Below, piece by piece: positions 297-8,764 of a DNA stretch of 64,000 bases (the first letter of the stretch is position 1; every line of letters begins with the position of its first letter). The translations under genes were made by a program, and so were the position numbers. The notes below the pieces were generated by a model. The model saw only the letters and a program-made list of their open reading frames with translations, made no database searches and was not told the origin of the DNA. The DNA is from Candidatus Saccharimonadota bacterium (lineage in GTDB: Bacteria > Patescibacteriota > Saccharimonadia > Saccharimonadales > Saccharimonadaceae): contig JAFWIP010000004.1 in assembly GCA_017514805.1 (NCBI GenBank), forward strand, positions 1-64,000, in the 5' to 3' direction.

Positions 297-3200
297 TTAT
301 TCGCTATCGTTTTCGACTGGATAGATAAGAGCATCGACGTCGATATCAATCTCACCGTCAATATATTTTTGGAACGGATTTTTAATTACTCTATATTTGC
401 AAGTGTTCGCATTTACGATATAGATCTCGTATGCATCTTTTTTATCTTTAGCTAATCTCCATTCTGATGAAGTAATATTTATGCGACCATTAAAATCCGG
501 GACGGCTTTTGATTCAATATATTTGATATCTTCGTCATTTTTCGAGATTGAAAAGTCATAACCCTGATTATTGCCGCCGAACCAGTTAACGACACAATCG
601 CTATATTTTTCTTTAAGAACGTCATATACGAGCCGCTCAACGGCGTCTCCTAGCTCTTTTTTATTGATATCCGAATCGTTTTCAGTTTTATCCTTTGATG
701 GTTTTTCTAGCATTTGGGATTTTACTGACGATTGCTTATGCTTATTAATTCCGCTATTATCCTTGCGTTCCAGTTTGAGACTATTATTAGCGACTGATTC
801 GTCTTCGGTTATAACTCCATTCTTTAGATTCGGGAAGATTTCAGTAATGCTAGGTTGTTCTATTGCTATGTTTATCGACTGGTTTTTTGACATTTTTTCT
901 TTTTCTCGAAGTTCCTTTGCGTATTCTTCTAATTCTTTACGAGATTTATCGCTCAAGCCCTCAAATGCTTTTATCGCTCGTTTTTCTTCTTCGGTTGCAA
1001 CTTCTTCAAATTTTTTCTTAAAGTCGATTCGTTCCAAAAAGCTTTCATTGCCAGTTAGGCCATACTGTTTAACGAACGATTCTTTATTAATTTCTCTAGT
1101 TCTTCGTCTTCGGCCGTTAATAAAAACCCAGGCAATATCATTTAGTGTGCGTATATATGATGCCGGTATTGGCTGTCTGATCTGCGACGTATAAGCCCTG
1201 CCACCATAGTTTCCAGATACTTCGTCTTCAGTGTCTTCTTTTGAGACGCTAGCAAGCAACGTTACCAAGGCAGATACCTCGGACTCATTTTTTAGGCTTG
1301 AAACTGTTTTCTTAAAATCTTGGATTGTGTTCAATTTTGAATACCACCATCTTGGATACATATCGATGGCCACCCCATATTTCTCTTTGAGATAAGCTTT
1401 TTCGCCATCATCAACGTCATATCCATAAGCATACGAGTACTGGTTTTCCGTAGTAATTGGCATACCCTCGATAATACCTAGGTTGGCGCAGAGGTCTTTT
1501 GAGCCTTTCTGTATAGGATTATTCTTTTTGTCTCTTTCTATGACGTCAGTCCAATAATCCTTTTGTAAGAAAGCTCCTTTCTTGAATACTAGTTTTTGTT
1601 CTTCGGTGCCGCGCATCAATTCAGATGCAATTGTCCTATATCTTTTGCCGTTTTGAATTGTAGGAAATAGCTCGCAGTTTTTTAATAGCGAAATGATTTC
1701 CGATTTATCTGAACTGCTTGCGGAATTATAGATATCGCATATTTCAAAGAATACTCTTTTCTTCTCTTTGTTGGGCAGCTTATCCCATTCGGCGAGGATC
1801 GTCGATTCTATGTATTGTCTCGGCGAACGTTCCTTGATGTCGAGCATGCTTAGGAATCGGCGCATTTCTTCCTTTGTCTCGTCTGATAGATTTTTGCTCG
1901 TAAAGAGCCCGTGAATAAGCTTTGCGCTAGGAATTCCTTTTGAGTAACGAAATACCTGCGCCTCGTCATTAATATATGCGCAAATGAATTTACCAGTTCT
2001 CGTTTTAATTATCGGCACTTCTTTAAGCTTATCGGCTTCGCTTTTTTCGTACCAACTGCTATTTTTGTTGCAATGATTTACGCATAGCGTATAGTACTTT
2101 AATAACCAGTCATTATTCTTTTTCTTAAGAATTCCATTATCTGCTAGATACTGAGAAAAATCGAGTATATTTATTCTTTCGACGCCTAATTTGTCTGAAA
2201 GAAAATGCCTAATTTTTGAATGAGAAGAATCTATGTCTAGCCACGGTCTATTGTAGTTGGAAAGGGTCGTCATTTCTTTCACGAGCGGCAATACGCCATT
2301 ATTGGCATTAATATACTTTTTAGATGTTGTGGGGAGAATATCTGTTTCGCTCAAGATGGTCACTAATTCGTCATACAGCCTGTCATAAATTCTAGATCTG
2401 CCATACATGTCGCCATCTACCGGAAGTATGTTATTTAGGAAATCTTGATCTACATAGTTTTCGTTACGTAGACTAATTAAAACTCGCTTAAAAACTGCGG
2501 CAATTTTATCTAGGATTTGTTTATTTTCCTTGGAGTCGAATTCAATCGATTCGCGCGTAGTTGCTAGGTCGAAAGGCGCATCTACATAAAATGGCAACTC
2601 GCTCCTAATTCTTGTTGGTAAGAATGAATATAAGTAGACATCGTTAATTGGGATTATTCTGCTGTCTACAACAGAGAACGAGAAAGATATGTTACTTTCT
2701 TTGTCTTTGAATAGATAGTAGCTTTTGTCGTTTCCTAAATCTTGTACCAGCTCGTAATTTTCTAGTTGTTCTCGATTTAATACAATCTCTGATTTATTGC
2801 CGTTATCGTTTATGAATATCTCGCTGATATTCCTTAAAAACATTATGGTAGCGCAGTCGAGTTCGCCAAGTTCATCACTAATCTTGTTAACTAGCTCTTC
2901 TTTAGTATATTTACTCTTGCCGCTATTGAATGGTAAAACGGTTTTAGTTGTAAAACCATTCAGATCGTCCGGATCTATTTCGTATGGTATCGATAAGTGT
3001 TCTATTTTAAAATTATATGCACGGTTATATATCAGAGGTGTATCTGTTATGGCGAAAACAGATTTGAAACCAACGCCGAATTTGCCAATCGGTCGACCGT
3101 CTTTCTTTGTGCTATTGCCGACGCCTGTAATCGATATAATGTCTTTGAGCGTAAAGTCTTTTGAACCGTTATGATAAAAAACGAGCTTATCTGAATAGAG

Positions 3201-3392
3201 CTCGAATTGTACTTTAGTAGCTAATGCATCGTCAGCATTCTGGAGTAATTCATAGACGAAATGCGTGGGTTTTTCGTAGATACCAACAAGAACACCCTCA
3301 TAATTGTCGCCATCGGCAACTTGGTCGTTATATCTCTTGAGGCGTCTACTCGTTATCTCTCCTAGAGTCTTGCAATTGTCTATAGAGTCCAT
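297..3392 (-). CDS. NO VEIN/sacsin-like GHKL ATPase with C-terminal DUF3883 domain (putative defence protein)
   Basis: The N-terminus carries a GHKL (Hsp90/histidine-kinase type) ATP-binding fold. Counting from the ATG at 3398, ELLQNADDA lies at residues 50-58 (N box) and GKFGVGFKSVF at 105-115 (glycine-rich lid), as in sacsin and plant NO VEIN proteins. The last ~110 residues look like DUF3883 (NOV C-terminal domain), a PD-(D/E)XK-like fold, with GYDFSI followed by YIESKAV as likely acidic and lysine catalytic positions. About 1031 aa, no membrane segments. A TATAAT box at 3404-3399 is 6 bases before the ATG at 3392, so a leaderless start there is preferred over the ATG at 3398. It sits directly downstream of a restriction-modification cassette. 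A role in DNA defence is inferred from domains and neighbours. Confidence 0.8.
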   Translation of the reverse strand: MDSIDNCKTLGEITSRRLKRYNDQVADGDNYEGVLVGIYEKPTHFVYELLQNADDALATKVQFELYSDKLVFYHNGSKDFTLKDIISITGVGNSTKKDGRPIGKFGVGFKSVFAITDTPLIYNRAYNFKIEHLSIPYEIDPDDLNGFTTKTVLPFNSGKSKYTKEELVNKISDELGELDCATIMFLRNISEIFINDNGNKSEIVLNREQLENYELVQDLGNDKSYYLFKDKESNISFSFSVVDSRIIPINDVYLYSFLPTRIRSELPFYVDAPFDLATTRESIEFDSKENKQILDKIAAVFKRVLISLRNENYVDQDFLNNILPVDGDMYGRSRIYDRLYDELVTILSETDILPTTSKKYINANNGVLPLVKEMTTLSNYNRPWLDIDSSHSKIRHFLSDKLGVERINILDFSQYLADNGILKKKNNDWLLKYYTLCVNHCNKNSSWYEKSEADKLKEVPIIKTRTGKFICAYINDEAQVFRYSKGIPSAKLIHGLFTSKNLSDETKEEMRRFLSMLDIKERSPRQYIESTILAEWDKLPNKEKKRVFFEICDIYNSASSSDKSEIISLLKNCELFPTIQNGKRYRTIASELMRGTEEQKLVFKKGAFLQKDYWTDVIERDKKNNPIQKGSKDLCANLGIIEGMPITTENQYSYAYGYDVDDGEKAYLKEKYGVAIDMYPRWWYSKLNTIQDFKKTVSSLKNESEVSALVTLLASVSKEDTEDEVSGNYGGRAYTSQIRQPIPASYIRTLNDIAWVFINGRRRRTREINKESFVKQYGLTGNESFLERIDFKKKFEEVATEEEKRAIKAFEGLSDKSRKELEEYAKELREKEKMSKNQSINIAIEQPSITEIFPNLKNGVITEDESVANNSLKLERKDNSGINKHKQSSVKSQMLEKPSKDKTENDSDINKKELGDAVERLVYDVLKEKYSDCVVNWFGGNNQGYDFSISKNDEDIKYIESKAVPDFNGRINITSSEWRLAKDKKDAYEIYIVNANTCKYRVIKNPFQKYIDGEIDIDVDALIYPVENDSE

Positions 3393-3404
3393 ATACATAT
3401 TATA

Positions 3405-3866
3405 ACATATTTCCTATATTTACGCCAGTATTAGCAGTATATCCTACCATTGACATTGCATTTCTTTTATTTTCTTCATTGTCATTGTTTTAAGCCTCTC
3501 CGGCTCCAGCTAAGCTAGAAATCCTTAAAAGTTCGAATCTCTTTGCCTGTATATGTATACCTCAGAACTCGCACGGCATCAGAATAGGGTAATCCTTTTT
3601 AGGTATAACCTTGATCTTAGCCGTGTATTCGGGGTGGTCAATACACCAGTCTACAACCATGCAAAGCCGAGCAACAACGCCTGGTCGCCCCTCACCAATT
3701 AAGACAAAAAGATAGCCCGAAGGGCTAATTTTTTTGTCTTAAACAAATGGTTGAGTTGGATGTGTTGAGAACCCACGCGGGTTCGCCCAAAGCCCAGTTT
3801 CCGTCAGGAAACGACGGCGCATTGCTTATATCCCACCCGACACCCCACTAGCGTACTAAAAGCCGA
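3405..3866. other. 462-base gap between the methylase cassette and the GHKL ATPase
   Basis: There is no convincing gene. The stretch holds the -35 region of the ATPase gene, a strong palindromic terminator (3701-3740) and two smaller hairpins (GAACCC/GGGTTC near 3769-3784 and GTTTCC/GGAAAC near 3802-3817). A 32-codon minus-strand frame at 3562-3660 (MVVDWCIDHPEYTAKIKV...) reads like protein but has no ribosome-binding site; open frame continues upstream of its ATG through the terminator stem, which suggests the tail of a decayed gene. A tRNA T-loop-like string (GTTCGAATC) near 3532 lacks a matching acceptor stem. Confidence 0.5.
3701..3740. terminator. Palindromic terminator ending the restriction-modification operon
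   Basis: AAGACAAAAA and its complement flank an inner stem TAGCCC/GGGCTA with a GAA loop. Read on the minus strand the stem is followed by a T-run, placing a terminator ~127 bases after the last methylase gene. The symmetry would allow termination in both directions. Confidence 0.7.
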
Positions 3867-4625
3867 CTAGTCTTTTTTAAAGATAAATAAGAACTCGTGA
3901 GCCAGTAAGAAAAAGTTGTATTTTATACTGCTAGTCTTCCAATAGCCTGTTGCTCGACAGTTGTGCTGCTCCTTTAATATAATCTCTTTTAGCCTAAAGC
4001 CCGCATCTTCAAATAGCTGCATTGTCTTAAAGCTAAGGGGGATAACATGGCCTTTCTTCCGTACGTCGCCCATGAGAATTGCGCAGAATTTACCTTTCTT
4101 TAGCACGCGATAGCTCTCTCCTGCTACGGCTTTCATTTGTTCGAGGAATTCGTCAATCTTATAGTTCGATATATCTTCCGGAATGTCTTTTCCTTCGCTG
4201 TAATGTATGATGTCTGCGTATGGTGGATGTGTGCAAATTAAATCTATGCTTTCGTCTTTTATACCGCATAGTTTGCGCGCGTCGCCTTTATGTATTTTAA
4301 CGATACCATCCGCACCTTTGCGTTTAAACTTTGTTTTTTCTCGGCAACGGCTTAGGGCCTCGTCATTTACATCGAGGCCAATAATGTTGCGGTTTAGTAG
4401 CTTTGCCTCTACAAGCGTAGTGCCACCACCTGCGAATTGATCTAGTATTAAGTCGCCTGCTTTCGAGTAGCGAAGCAGTATATTACGGGGAATATATGGC
4501 GACCAATTACCGCGCCACTTAGCATCATGTGTTGCCCAGTCCCCGCGCTTCGGAAAGCTCCAGACACTGGTCATTTCTAATTCGAAATCGTCTGGCTCCC
4601 ATTTTTTGATATTATTACTAATCAT
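3867..4625 (-). CDS. DNA N4/N6 methyltransferase (second methylase of the cassette)
   Basis: 252 aa. QFAGGGTT at residues 63-70 is the S-adenosylmethionine-binding motif and HPPY at 133-136 is a variant of the catalytic (D/N/S/T)PPY motif of amino-methyltransferases. Binding motif before catalytic motif is the N6_N4_Mtase order. The ATG has GGAG 6 bases upstream. It is the last gene of a five-gene minus-strand operon, 11 bases after the unknown 177-aa gene. A second methylase in a GATC system recalls DpnA, which protects incoming single strands in the DpnII system; alternatively it could pair with the GIY-YIG nuclease. His in place of Asp/Ser/Asn in the PPY motif is unusual. Confidence 0.85.
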   Translation of the reverse strand: MISNNIKKWEPDDFELEMTSVWSFPKRGDWATHDAKWRGNWSPYIPRNILLRYSKAGDLILDQFAGGGTTLVEAKLLNRNIIGLDVNDEALSRCREKTKFKRKGADGIVKIHKGDARKLCGIKDESIDLICTHPPYADIIHYSEGKDIPEDISNYKIDEFLEQMKAVAGESYRVLKKGKFCAILMGDVRKKGHVIPLSFKTMQLFEDAGFRLKEIILKEQHNCRATGYWKTSSIKYNFFLLAHEFLFIFKKD

Positions 4626-4636
4626 AGATGCTCCAG

Positions 4637-5170
4637 CTATTTCCTGCCATTGAAGCCTGCCGTGGACATTATCTTGAAAATATCCCTGTCAATATTGAGA
4701 AGTTCAGTAATAATATTTCCGAACATATAAGCATCGGGCCTATTTGTTTTCTCCTGGATTGCTAATAATTCCATTAATACGTAGAGAAATTCTACGTCAT
4801 ATTCGCCGTAACTGTTTAGCGGCTTAAAGCATTCAATTTTGATTTCTTTCTCACCGTCGAGTATTAAATCTCTTATTGTCTCAAAAGTATTATCGGGCAA
4901 CGGAGCGCAAGTTTCCCAGCATTTTTGGATAACCTCGAGGTATTTTCTAGTCAGGGCGTCGTTTCCTTGCATTTTCATTAACACGTCAACGGCCCAATGG
5001 ATATGCTTTGGGGTCCTGATCCGTTTTCCGTCTTTTCGGTATTTAATAATAATATCGTATTTAGAAAGACTCCCCTGAAAAACATAGATAATATAGTCAT
5101 CAAAAACGAACTCGATGATAGCTTTTAGCGTCCCTTTTTTGATAGTTTGAGTCCCCTTCAAAATTTCCAT
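4637..5170 (-). CDS. Unknown protein inside the restriction-modification operon
   Basis: 177 aa, soluble, mixed charge, no recognised domain. It has a strong ribosome-binding site (AAGGAGG 4 bases before ATG) and lies 9 bases after the HTH-Dam gene and 11 bases before the second methylase, so it is surely co-transcribed with them. The N-terminal third looks beta-rich (alternating IIEFVFDDYIIYVF), the rest helical. It could be a specificity or accessory subunit, a third nuclease of unknown fold, or an immunity partner; no motif settles this. Confidence 0.8.
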   Translation of the reverse strand: MEILKGTQTIKKGTLKAIIEFVFDDYIIYVFQGSLSKYDIIIKYRKDGKRIRTPKHIHWAVDVLMKMQGNDALTRKYLEVIQKCWETCAPLPDNTFETIRDLILDGEKEIKIECFKPLNSYGEYDVEFLYVLMELLAIQEKTNRPDAYMFGNIITELLNIDRDIFKIMSTAGFNGRK

Positions 5171-5179
5171 CTAACCTCC

Positions 5180-6253
5180 TTAAAAATTAGTTATTAATAA
5201 TTCATTAATTTTTCCGCGCGCATCGCTATTGCGGTTTATCATTCTATTTGCTGCTACTCTGCGAATATTCTGTTTCGAATATGCGTCATCAAAGAAATTA
5301 TCGTTTTCGTCTGTGTTCTTAGGATCTGAATTGCTAATAACGATTAGCGCTCCTTTATTGTCTAAGTCCTGTACAAAATTCGCAAGCTCAAGCTGTTTGC
5401 TATCGTCAAATAAATGTTCAGTATATGATGTAAAGTTAGCAGTCTTAGTTAGTGGACGATATGGCGGATCGAAATATACAAACGTCTTGTCGTCAATGAA
5501 ACTCGCCGAGTCCTTATAGTCACCGCATATAATATTTGCGTTTTGCAACTTCTTTGAGACATTCAACAAGTTATCTTCGTTGCAGATTTGTGGATTTTTG
5601 TAGGCTCCCATCGGCACGTTATAATCCCCGGCCTTATTTACACGATAAAGACCGTTGAAGCAAGTCCTGTTTAGGAATATCATCAGCGTCGCCGCTTCAG
5701 CATCGCGAATACCGTCGCGTTTGAGCGCATTAAAGCGCGCACGTGCTTCGAGGTAGGCCTTTTTGCGTGCGTCTGCGTCTTTAGCGAGATAATCGCTCTC
5801 CATGGTCTTAAGGCGCGAAATAAGCTCGTCCGAATTGTCACGAATGGTAATGTAAGTGTTAATAAGCTCGGCGTTAATGTCGCTAATATAAACTTCGTCG
5901 ACAGTATGTTTATTTAATACGTCGAAGAGGACAGCGCCACCACCAACGAATGGCTCTGCATACTTCTTAATATGTTTCTTTTCGGCAAAAGGATAATACT
6001 TACCGATTTCGGTTAGTAATTGACCTTTACCGCCAGCCCATTTTAGGAATGGCTTTGCTTCGCCAGACTTTGCCTTTGCGGTCTTCGTCCTAGCGTCGAC
6101 TGGCTTCTTTGTATTTTTTGGAATTAGCCAGTCTTTTTTGCCTTCCCATCTCTTAGCTCCGGGAATTCTGCCATTATTACAATAGTCGTTCACCCACCTT
6201 GGCGTCACTTTCCATTTCTTTGCCGCCGTTTGGACTGATATATAGTCGTCCAT
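5180..6253 (-). CDS. HTH-Dam fusion: adenine-N6 DNA methyltransferase with N-terminal DNA-binding domain
   Basis: 357 aa. Residues 1-48 form a short helix-turn-helix domain of the excisionase/MerR-like type (QTAAKKWKVTPRWVNDYC). From 68 on it is a class D12 (Dam/DpnM-type) methylase: FLKWAGGKGQLL (69-80), PFVGGGAVLF (101-110, SAM site) and DPPY (262-265, catalysis). Dam-family enzymes methylate A in GATC, matching the MutH/Sau3AI-like nuclease encoded just upstream. The ATG has GAGGTAAT before it. A 74-base gap upstream contains its own TATAAT and direct repeats, unlike the other tight junctions of the operon, suggesting separate control, perhaps by its own HTH domain. Confidence 0.9.
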   Translation of the reverse strand: MDDYISVQTAAKKWKVTPRWVNDYCNNGRIPGAKRWEGKKDWLIPKNTKKPVDARTKTAKAKSGEAKPFLKWAGGKGQLLTEIGKYYPFAEKKHIKKYAEPFVGGGAVLFDVLNKHTVDEVYISDINAELINTYITIRDNSDELISRLKTMESDYLAKDADARKKAYLEARARFNALKRDGIRDAEAATLMIFLNRTCFNGLYRVNKAGDYNVPMGAYKNPQICNEDNLLNVSKKLQNANIICGDYKDSASFIDDKTFVYFDPPYRPLTKTANFTSYTEHLFDDSKQLELANFVQDLDNKGALIVISNSDPKNTDENDNFFDDAYSKQNIRRVAANRMINRNSDARGKINELLITNF

Positions 6254-6287
6254 ACATTACCTCGCTTTCTGAATATGCTTATATACT

Positions 6288-6317
6288 ATTATATTCCAAA
6301 GCTAGAATAATGCTAGA
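6288..6317 (-). promoter_or_regulatory. Probable internal promoter and operator in front of the HTH-Dam gene
   Basis: On the minus strand TATAAT (6293-6288) lies 35 bases before the Dam start. Two direct GCTAGA repeats, 11 bases apart start to start (6301-6306, 6312-6317), occupy the spacer and the -35 position, where the match to TTGACA is weak (CTAGCA). One helical turn of spacing fits a bound dimer. That the HTH domain of the methylase binds here is inference. Confidence 0.4.
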
Positions 6318-6327
6318 TCTGATTTTG

Positions 6328-7002
6328 CTAAATGTCGCGACCGTCTACTTTATTGATGTAATAGACGAATTCTTTCTTGAAATAGAACGCATGATTCTTG
6401 TTAGAAACATAGCGATTGTATGTGTCTGAGTAGATCGGGTGATAATTTCCACTCGAATCGCGCGCATCTTTGCTGCGGATTTGAATCTGACTACCGTTGG
6501 AAGTATGAATGAAGCCATCTGAGCTATGTTCAATGTGTTGTTTCAATTGTCCGCAAATAGAGTAATAATCATCGCGCCATATATCCTTTAGCGCGGCGTA
6601 TTTTGGATTGGACAGATCGACGTGGATGCTTGGCAAAAAGAACCAATCTTCTGGCTTACCGTCTTTGCAAACTGGTACATATAAGATATTACCGATTTTC
6701 TTGTAGAGCTTTGTCTTTTCGAATTCTTTTTTCGCGAGTAGTTCGTCAATCATCGCGCTAATTTGCGTAATGAATACTGTTTCATACGGTTTTCCATTCT
6801 TGTCGCATTTGTTAGTCTTAAGTTCGCCATCTTCAAAGTCTAGATCTGCGCTTGAGAGATTCATGCCTAGTGCTAGTTCTAGAAGCTGGCCGGTTTTTCC
6901 TTTGGCTATAATAATATCTCTCATTTCTTCGGTCGAAAAAAGAGAGGAGAATTTGATTCCGACAAGCTTGTTTAGTTTGTCGCAAGCTTCTTGTAATTTC
7001 AT
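6328..7002 (-). CDS. MutH/Sau3AI-family restriction endonuclease (predicted GATC cutter)
   Basis: 224 aa, the size of MutH. GKTGQLLELALG at 35-46 matches the conserved helix of MutH/Sau3AI enzymes, followed by D53, E60 and K62 with the D-x6-E-x-K spacing of the MutH active site (known as D70, E77, K79 in E. coli). The family cleaves unmethylated GATC. Start ATG has AAGGA upstream. It follows the GIY-YIG gene by 15 bases and precedes the Dam-type methylase, so it is most likely the restriction half of a Sau3AI/DpnII-like system rather than a mismatch-repair enzyme; no MutS or MutL is visible here. Confidence 0.85.
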   Translation of the reverse strand: MKLQEACDKLNKLVGIKFSSLFSTEEMRDIIIAKGKTGQLLELALGMNLSSADLDFEDGELKTNKCDKNGKPYETVFITQISAMIDELLAKKEFEKTKLYKKIGNILYVPVCKDGKPEDWFFLPSIHVDLSNPKYAALKDIWRDDYYSICGQLKQHIEHSSDGFIHTSNGSQIQIRSKDARDSSGNYHPIYSDTYNRYVSNKNHAFYFKKEFVYYINKVDGRDI

Positions 7003-7017
7003 ATAAGATATCCTTGC

Positions 7018-8202
7018 TTAGAGCGATTTCTTATATTTTAGCACTGATTCGTTGATTTTATGCTTTAATTGCTCGATCTTATAAAGAGCAGAAAGGGCGA
7101 AGAAATATTCGTTAATCCTATCTAGGACAAGCTCGTCATGTATGTTAAAAATATAATCTGATTTCCATGCAGTATGGTTAGCGAGTGGGATTTTTAGCAT
7201 GTCGGCGATTTCTCTTTGTATTTCAATCCTACACTCGGGCCTCTTCTTATATAAATGGTACCTAACGCATACGCCCTCGGCGTATACTATCTGGTCGCCG
7301 AAATGAATATCTTTTTCTGGTACACCATAGCACGTCAGTTTATTTTTAATTTTATTTTTTATCATATAATCAACACTCGTCTCGAGCACGTTTCTGTCTT
7401 CAACTATGAGCCCAACATTGATTAAATATTTATAGACGTCTTGTAGGCTATATATTTTTTTATTATCTTGCCGGTATCTTATGTATAAATCTTCGCATAA
7501 ATATCCGGCCACTAGAACGTTAGCCGTTTTTGCGGTTACCGAAGAATACACCCTTCCATTATTTGATTTAATATACGTAGATATTGATTCTATCATTCTG
7601 CTCGTATTTTGCTCATATTCTTCGGGAGGTATTCCAGCTTTGTGAAAATATGATAAAGAATAATCTCCGTCATGAGGTAAATCGAAATATGGCTTTTGGT
7701 TGATATTGTAGTATTTTTCGTAAAAACCAGACCATTCTATGGCCGAGCCTTCAGTTGTGACAGTGTTTGATTTAAGATATTTGTTTGGCACGCCCTCATA
7801 GCAAAGAAGAAACTCGCCCTCGTTTAACAACTTTAATTTATAGCACTCTTCATATATGTATGATTCGAAATTTGTTAAATTGTTAGCTAAAATTTCATAA
7901 TCGATGCCAAATGATTTTTTGAGCATCGCATAAAGTCTCCAACGGCGCATACTGCTATGGCGTACTGTCGCTTTTTCTATGTCCGCGAGAATGTGATTGA
8001 CTCTATCTCCCGTGCCTTTCCCGACATAGAAATATTTTTTTGGGGTGGTTTTTGTATGCCAGGCATAGACATAATACTTTCTTGGCCCTATAGAATCGCT
8101 AGGGCAAAGGGGCGTGATATATTTATTACAGTCCGATTGATGCTCGTAATAAAGTTTTTTTACGTCGTCTCTAATGTCTTTTGAAGCGCATAAATCTTTC
8201 AT
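7018..8202 (-). CDS. GIY-YIG endonuclease, LEM-3-like, first gene of the restriction cassette
   Basis: 394 aa. Residues 43-130 carry a GIY-YIG nuclease domain: YVYAW (44-48), YFYVGKGTGDRVNH (57-70, with the conserved Gly and Arg) and the metal-binding glutamate in NFESYIYEE around 111-119. The YxYxW...FYVGKGxGxR form resembles the LEM-3/ANKLE1-like subgroup. The C-terminal ~250 residues are unrecognised and probably bind DNA. No good ribosome-binding site is seen; TATAAT at 8234-8229 would give a leader of about 20 bases. As promoter-proximal gene of the operon it may be a second restriction nuclease or a nicking or processing enzyme. Confidence 0.75.
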   Translation of the reverse strand: MKDLCASKDIRDDVKKLYYEHQSDCNKYITPLCPSDSIGPRKYYVYAWHTKTTPKKYFYVGKGTGDRVNHILADIEKATVRHSSMRRWRLYAMLKKSFGIDYEILANNLTNFESYIYEECYKLKLLNEGEFLLCYEGVPNKYLKSNTVTTEGSAIEWSGFYEKYYNINQKPYFDLPHDGDYSLSYFHKAGIPPEEYEQNTSRMIESISTYIKSNNGRVYSSVTAKTANVLVAGYLCEDLYIRYRQDNKKIYSLQDVYKYLINVGLIVEDRNVLETSVDYMIKNKIKNKLTCYGVPEKDIHFGDQIVYAEGVCVRYHLYKKRPECRIEIQREIADMLKIPLANHTAWKSDYIFNIHDELVLDRINEYFFALSALYKIEQLKHKINESVLKYKKSL

Positions 8203-8228
8203 ATATAGATATATAGTTATTAATTATG

Positions 8229-8234
8229 ATTATA
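8229..8234 (-). promoter_or_regulatory. -10 box of the restriction-modification operon
   Basis: TATAAT on the minus strand, 26 bases before the GIY-YIG ATG. The -35 region is poor. The remaining bases of 8203-8455 hold no other feature I can support. Confidence 0.5.
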
Positions 8235-8455
8235 ACGCTATTTCCGTGCTAAATAACTAGACGCTCGAATGTAATGAGCTTTAGTTCATGAAGAATAGAA
8301 ATGAAGTATTTCGCAAAAGCAGCTTTATCTTGTGGAAAGATATGCCATCGCTTGATGCGAAAAAGTCGCATAGCGCTCTGTTTGATTATTTAAAAAAGAA
8401 CGCAAAAAAGATAGAGATATTCTCTTTGGTAATTCTTAATCTGAGCCAACATTAT

Positions 8456-8764
8456 CTATCGTTTTTTAAACTTGGTTTTTAGTCCCGCGACAGTTGCATT
8501 AATAATCTCCGCAACCATCTCCGCATTATCAATATCTTCCACAAAATACATCGGTTTCGCGCCGTCGTACGGAATTTCTTCGGTCATTTTGTATCGTTCG
8601 TTTTCTGGAACAATTTTTACAAGTAGGCGATCATCATAAATGCCACCAAATAACACTCCGTCTAAATATAACAGGAACTCCCCCATCATCGGCCGGCAAG
8701 TAATGCCCGGCAAGTCGCGGAGTTGCTCTAGAATAAAGTCTCGATATTCTTTTGTGCTGGACAT
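8456..8764 (-). CDS. TfoX N-terminal domain protein
   Basis: 102 aa, the usual size of stand-alone TfoX-N proteins. RPMMGEFLLYLDG at 24-36 followed by GGIYDDRLLVK (40-50) is the typical core. TfoX/Sxy of gamma-proteobacteria regulates competence, but the isolated N-terminal domain is widespread and its role is not established. The start overlaps the stop of the deaminase-like gene by one base (TAATG), so the two are translationally coupled. Confidence 0.85.
   Translation of the reverse strand: MSSTKEYRDFILEQLRDLPGITCRPMMGEFLLYLDGVLFGGIYDDRLLVKIVPENERYKMTEEIPYDGAKPMYFVEDIDNAEMVAEIINATVAGLKTKFKKR

Follow-up and report, generated by a model that had tools for sequence, protein, structure and literature searches.

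Within the first 64,000 nucleotides (the window) of contig JAFWIP010000004.1 from a Candidatus Saccharimonadota bacterium (assembly GCA_017514805.1; genome of 881 kb in 11 contigs, completeness 98.9%), five co-directional open reading frames (ORFs) are read on the minus strand from position 8202 to position 3867. They code, in gene order, for a putative GIY-YIG nuclease, a MutH-like nuclease, a Dam-family methylase with an N-terminal helix–turn–helix (HTH) domain, a 177-aa protein and a second methylase with the catalytic motif HPPY, and are separated by gaps of 15, 74, 9 and 11 bp. The five genes are best read as one GATC restriction–modification (R-M) cassette and not as two interleaved ones. 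We estimate at about 0.75 the probability that this is a single GATC-directed type II cassette of modular build, in which Dam, the MutH-like nuclease and the HPPY methylase are accompanied by the 177-aa accessory protein and an added GIY-YIG protein. Coordinates and strand given for all five ORFs by a first-pass annotation were confirmed by an ORF check. Profile searches against Pfam, NCBIfam and PADLOC likewise confirmed a MutH-like nuclease, a D12 Dam and an N6/N4 methylase among the five proteins.

The HPPY methylase matches PF01555 with 83 bits and the PADLOC type II methylase model PDLC03376 with 430 bits. The order of its motifs is permuted: motif I (FAGGGTT) precedes HPPY, and positions 133–216 of the PF01555 profile are aligned before positions 1–110. 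A scan of GTDB genomes with this protein returned more than 570 relatives, and we retained the best 80; close homologues are 73–87% identical. A plasmid search added a homologue of 74% identity from Fusobacterium vincentii (locus L007), in an operon Dam-DpnII-Mrr-HPPY, and three relatives from the same phylum as the window (54–58% identity) lie in Dam-nuclease-HPPY operons. There are 69 loci with enough upstream sequence for linkage to be counted (68 of the best 80, and L007). Dam is adjacent to the HPPY gene in 67 of them, including one divergent pair and one Dam–DpnII fusion; the commonest layout is Dam-[slot]-DpnII nuclease-HPPY. This linkage places the HPPY methylase with the GATC system and speaks against a separate GIY-YIG/HPPY system. 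The tie applies to the close HPPY subfamily, as distant homologues (less than 40% identity) lack Dam and have as sole partner a downstream gene that is HNH-like or unidentified. The earlier proposal of an elaborated DpnII-like GATC system with a second methylase is thus upheld, the HPPY gene recurring beside Dam across Saccharibacteria, Bacillota and Fusobacterium. In locus L098, the Dam and DpnII genes form a single ORF of 590 aa (L098:1920–3692).

The MutH-like protein exceeds the cut-off of PF02976 (29 bits against 23), matches NCBIfam NF003458 over residues 7–214 (E = 5e-13, under the equivalog cut-off) and can be aligned to MutH of the PDB across profile positions 25–213. Residues D55, E60 and K62 align with the D..ELK motif of MutH and are invariant in five MutH-like homologues (alignment A3). 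The catalytic residues had been given as D53, E60 and K62; the last two stand, while D53 varies and the catalytic acid is D55. Among 81 cassettes, 60 carry a DpnII nuclease (PF04556) and six a MutH-like nuclease (the window, its congener G367, L025, L027, L034 and L061). None of these six also has DpnII, compared with 60 of the 75 without a MutH-like gene (Fisher p = 1.7e-4, uncorrected for relatedness), and in the window the MutH-like nuclease occupies the DpnII place. This mutual exclusion is a property of HPPY-type cassettes, since both nucleases are present together in the viral-contig or prophage-like cassettes L105–L109, which have a DpnA-like methylase and no close HPPY homologue. MutS (PF00488) and MutL (PF01119), each found in 11 of 14 control genomes, were not found in this genome. 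On the basis of the exclusion and of the missing MutS and MutL, the MutH-like protein is best read as the restriction enzyme of the cassette. A role in DNA repair or in control at hemimethylated GATC, which its family name and its catalytic motif would suggest, is highly improbable: besides excluding DpnII, the gene occurs in only 2 of 151 genomes of the family, both times within this R-M cassette. For mismatch repair in particular, the lack of MutS and MutL led us to reject it.

Among named organisms, the closest relatives of the cassette are found in Candidatus Saccharibacteria metagenome-assembled genomes (MAGs) from ruminant guts. One of them, L025, has MutH-Dam-177-HPPY in the same order as the window and no GIY-YIG gene. 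The congener G367 (L120:2074–6317) has MutH-Dam-(DUF6996/6997-type)-HPPY, also without GIY-YIG. Its proteins are 99.1% (MutH), 99.0% (methylase part of Dam), 45% (HTH of Dam) and 86.5% (HPPY) identical to those of the window. The two DNA sequences are highly similar in MutH, in the spacer that follows it and in most of Dam, with a drop across the HTH (window about 6260–6090). The similarity stops at the Dam stop codon, beyond which the slot genes differ, and on the other side immediately upstream of MutH, in the place of the window's GIY-YIG gene. These breakpoints are direct evidence of piecewise exchange, and of GIY-YIG as a local addition; the HTH is replaced between blocks otherwise about 99% identical, as if the regulatory domain had been swapped alone. 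The G367 cassette is followed by a PLD/DEAD helicase and an SMC-like ATPase, and its neighbours differ from those in the window.

In the HPPY tree, the seven Saccharibacteria-type sequences (window, G367 and L025–L029) form one clade (support 100/98) among mainly Bacillota, a position consistent with horizontal transfer. The nuclease and slot genes vary within this clade: MutH with the 177-aa protein (window, L025), MutH with a DUF6996/6997-type protein (G367), PDDEXK_11 alone (L026, L028), MutH with PDDEXK_11 (L027) and DpnII (L029). The parts of the cassette are interchangeable and are recombined by many gut bacteria.

The GIY-YIG identity proposed in the first-pass annotation is kept as putative. 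The motif FYVGKG...GDR is readable; the match to LEM-3_GIY-YIG is weak (E = 0.0039, 17.6 bits, cut-off 27), and another was obtained with phrog_5356 (E = 9e-6). A single-sequence structure model of the 394-aa protein was uninformative (pLDDT 40). No homologue was found in plasmids, phages, viral contigs, 287 genomes of the phylum, 151 genomes of the family or any fetched locus, the GTDB search for this gene covering HPPY neighbourhoods only. The gene is apparently a lineage-specific and recent local addition. All five genes together were found nowhere else in the sequences searched, and four of them recur in the order of the window in L025. Thus, the recurrent module consists of four of the five genes, GIY-YIG excluded.

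Searches of Pfam, NCBIfam and PADLOC gave no family for the 177-aa protein. Its structure model is of good quality (pLDDT 86.5, pTM 0.85), with an N-terminal part with a four-stranded beta sheet and a helical remainder. It gave no fold match in the PDB or in a viral library: among the matches listed, none in the PDB had E < 0.4 and none a probability above 0.4. Members of the family occur in 13 of the 81 cassettes, each time together with a nuclease of the MutH or DpnII type. Its gene lies in a slot between Dam and the nuclease or HPPY gene, which in the other cassettes holds PDDEXK_11 (PF20472; 20), Mrr (4), a DUF6996/6997-type protein (3), the family c7 (2) or nothing recognised (39). PDDEXK_11 is found without MutH or DpnII in 11 of its 20 cassettes and with one of them in nine (Fisher p = 0.0016 against the 177-aa family, uncorrected for relatedness). 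From this difference in company, the 177-aa protein would be a conserved accessory in an exchangeable slot, and PDDEXK_11 can plausibly be the restriction enzyme of its cassettes. A second restriction enzyme is a disfavoured reading of the 177-aa protein, which is never the sole nuclease candidate and shows no nuclease fold; neither structure comparison nor Pfam gave a fold or motif of PD-(D/E)XK nucleases. Slot states change 36 times on the HPPY tree, compared with a mean of 37.4 for shuffled labels; there is thus no phylogenetic signal in this test, which is limited by weakly supported branches and by recombination of HPPY itself. The GTDB search for 177-aa genes covered only HPPY neighbourhoods.

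We tentatively propose, at somewhat less than even odds, that GATC R-M systems have a further component, so far undescribed and of a new fold, in the 177-aa family. Its members would act on or with the restriction enzyme (as a cofactor, licensing factor or brake) and share their slot with accessory nucleases, a fixed Dam/HPPY pair being retuned by swapping of slot genes, nuclease and HTH domain. A relationship with c7, a family of 178-aa proteins found with MutH on viral contigs, is suggestive only (hhalign E about 1e-3, probability 22%).

Several related loci deserve mention. Dam-PDDEXK_11-HPPY cassettes without DpnII or MutH are L026, L028, L039, L052, L053, L065, L073, L078, L080, L083 and L088; their PF20472 proteins are candidate stand-alone GATC nucleases. 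On the viral contigs L105, L106, L108 and L109 (around 4400–8260), the order is c7-MutH-Dam-DpnA-like-DpnII, with two GATC nucleases beside the c7 protein. In another member of the phylum (L004:806–2007), a distant 177-aa homologue is convergent to a different MutH-family nuclease with an N6/N4 methylase.

In the mechanism that we favour, Dam (HTH-D12) would methylate double-stranded GATC in the cell's own DNA, its HTH probably regulating the operon, and the MutH-like protein would cleave incoming DNA at unmethylated GATC, or nick it there on both strands. The HPPY protein may be a second GATC methylase which, with a permuted architecture unlike that of DpnA, takes the place of DpnA in DpnII systems. 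Its most likely task would be the protection of DNA that enters the cell single-stranded through the competence machinery. The 177-aa protein would serve as accessory of the restriction enzyme, and the GIY-YIG protein may have an independent or auxiliary nuclease role. DpnA-like beta methylases were not found in the 80 HPPY loci or in L007, as expected if HPPY and DpnA share the same job. ComEC is present in the genome, and Saccharibacteria are naturally transformable in a comEC-dependent manner (PMC10633639). DpnA methylates single-stranded DNA and protects transforming DNA and transformants (PMC3573125). By analogy, DpnA would be the best counterpart of the HPPY methylase. The sequence similarity of the HPPY protein to the PDB entry named DpnA is only weak (E = 0.003).

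Some observations count against this reading. Two HPPY loci, L087 and L095, have no Dam, and the replacement of DpnA by HPPY is not strict, since L110 has a DpnA-like methylase in addition to HPPY. MutH of Escherichia coli is a weak nicking enzyme without MutL. A MutH-like enzyme of a mitochondrial R-M locus was not seen to be toxic in E. coli (PMC8099122). The observed/expected ratio of GATC is 0.67, the second lowest of 16 palindromes, compared with 0.63 in the congener G381, which has no MutH hit. Because the deficit is at least as strong in that genome, it is not diagnostic and is evidence neither way.

The first-pass annotation had also envisaged two interleaved systems. These would be MutH-like with Dam for GATC and GIY-YIG with HPPY for a second motif, and the 177-aa protein could be part of one or the other. 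Type II enzymes of the GIY-YIG kind exist (Eco29kI, Hpy188I), the GIY-YIG and HPPY genes lie at opposite ends of the operon, and the distant HPPY homologues described above live without Dam. However, the close homologues travel with Dam and the GIY-YIG gene travels with nothing found, while G367 has MutH, Dam, another slot gene and HPPY without it, which makes this arrangement distinctly improbable. It is somewhat unlikely, in our estimate, that HPPY acts instead on double-stranded DNA and sets another mark (such as N4-methylcytosine in GATC, or one at degenerate or hemimethylated sites) as a shield against the exchangeable accessory nucleases rather than protecting single strands. In favour of this possibility, the motif of the methylase is not the usual DPPY of adenine methylases, its family is N6_N4, such nucleases (PDDEXK_11, Mrr, DUF6996/6997) often occupy the slot, and the HPPY hosts include many Clostridia, which may or may not be competent. 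Yet 37 of the 81 cassettes have DpnII only, with no recognised accessory, and still keep HPPY; the methylase is therefore retained without accessory nucleases.

The cassette might also be chiefly a selfish mobile module maintained by addiction, with only incidental defence value to the symbiont. This would fit its patchy distribution, the single Saccharibacteria clade amid Bacillota, the breakpoints inside the operon, the related cassettes on viral contigs and the rarity in the genus of an adjoining gene (2 of 31). We nevertheless regard it as unlikely: neither an integrase nor terminal repeats nor the boundary of an element came to light, and the further defence-type gene that adjoins the cassette fits a defence island equally well.

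The features of the cassette are listed in table 1. Directly downstream of it lies the gene of a 1033-aa sacsin-type ATPase with a NO VEIN C-terminal domain (window 297–3398, minus strand), which matches the PADLOC TmtA models with 242 bits; this TmtA-like neighbour and the cassette suggest a small defence island. Just upstream, also on the minus strand (window 8456–8764), is the gene of a protein with a TfoX N-terminal domain (PF04993, 34.5 bits). Dam matches PF02086 with 215 bits and TIGR00571 with 284 bits (cut-off 114.85).

Table 1. Features of the R-M cassette and their positions in the window.
Feature	Coordinates	Strand	Remarks
Putative GIY-YIG nuclease, 394 aa, first operon gene	7018..8202	-	FYVGKG...GDR motif
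MutH-like nuclease, 224 aa, single domain; proposed GATC restriction endonuclease	6328..7002	-	PF02976
Catalytic motif D55...E60-L-K62 of the MutH-like protein	6817..6840	-	Coordinates counted from start codon
Dam-family (D12) adenine methylase with N-terminal HTH, 357 aa	5180..6253	-	PF02086, TIGR00571
HTH domain of Dam	6116..6244	-	HTH_17, 25.7 bits, just under cut-off; differs from congener G367
DPPY catalytic motif of Dam	5459..5470	-	Read from sequence
177-aa accessory protein (putative)	4637..5170	-	Conserved TPKHIHW and GEYxVEFLYVLM motifs
HPPY methylase, 252 aa, circularly permuted N6/N4, second methylase of cassette	3867..4625	-	PF01555
HPPY catalytic motif	4218..4229	-	Invariant in alignment A1; coordinates counted from start codon
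Terminator-like hairpin (TAGCCCTTCGGGCTA then T-rich)	3713..3727	-	Downstream of last gene (HPPY methylase)

A search of the open-licence literature, which did not cover REBASE, found no account of the modular family or its 177-aa component, nor of an HPPY protein serving as second GATC methylase; the HPPY methylase already has a PADLOC model. The comparisons suggest that the Dam/DpnII pair of the textbooks is one case of a wider modular family with constant methylases and exchangeable nuclease and accessory parts, which differ even from one congener of a tiny symbiont to another. The 177-aa family, as a conserved R-M component, and HPPY, as an alternative second methylase, are candidates that can be tested in the laboratory, and MutH-like nucleases are candidate stand-alone restriction enzymes. 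A GATC methylase acting on single strands would account for restriction alongside DNA uptake in naturally transformable Saccharibacteria.

Like the three-gene DpnII-type system of Streptococcus (dpnM-dpnA-dpnB), the cassette is an operon with a D12 Dam, a nuclease for GATC and a further methylase, and its close relatives carry the PF04556 DpnII nuclease itself. It differs by its MutH-like nuclease (PF02976), by the permuted order of its second methylase (DpnA has the beta order, DPPY before motif I), by the additional 177-aa and GIY-YIG genes and by the HTH fused to Dam. In the F. vincentii operon L007, HPPY and Dam (74% and 60% identical) keep the same flanking positions, whereas DpnII and Mrr replace the MutH-like and 177-aa proteins, GIY-YIG is missing and Dam has no HTH. 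The MAG cassette L025 is closer, with 77–85% identity for MutH, the 177-aa protein and HPPY and 70% for Dam, and differs by the missing GIY-YIG gene. With E. coli MutH, the window nuclease shares similarity along most of its length, including the D..ELK and QIR-K regions; unlike MutH, it is encoded in an operon with methylases. Sau3AI, to which the first-pass annotation had likened the system, has a MutH-like nuclease fold and the GATC target that the window cassette probably shares. However, enzymes of its class have two MutH-like domains and a cytosine-C5 methylase as partner, one homologue being a 463-aa protein with N and C domains (PMC10305163). The nuclease of the window is a single domain of 224 aa beside an adenine methylase, and the Sau3AI-type assignment was abandoned on this domain count and on the partner methylases, which are of the D12 and N6_N4 types.

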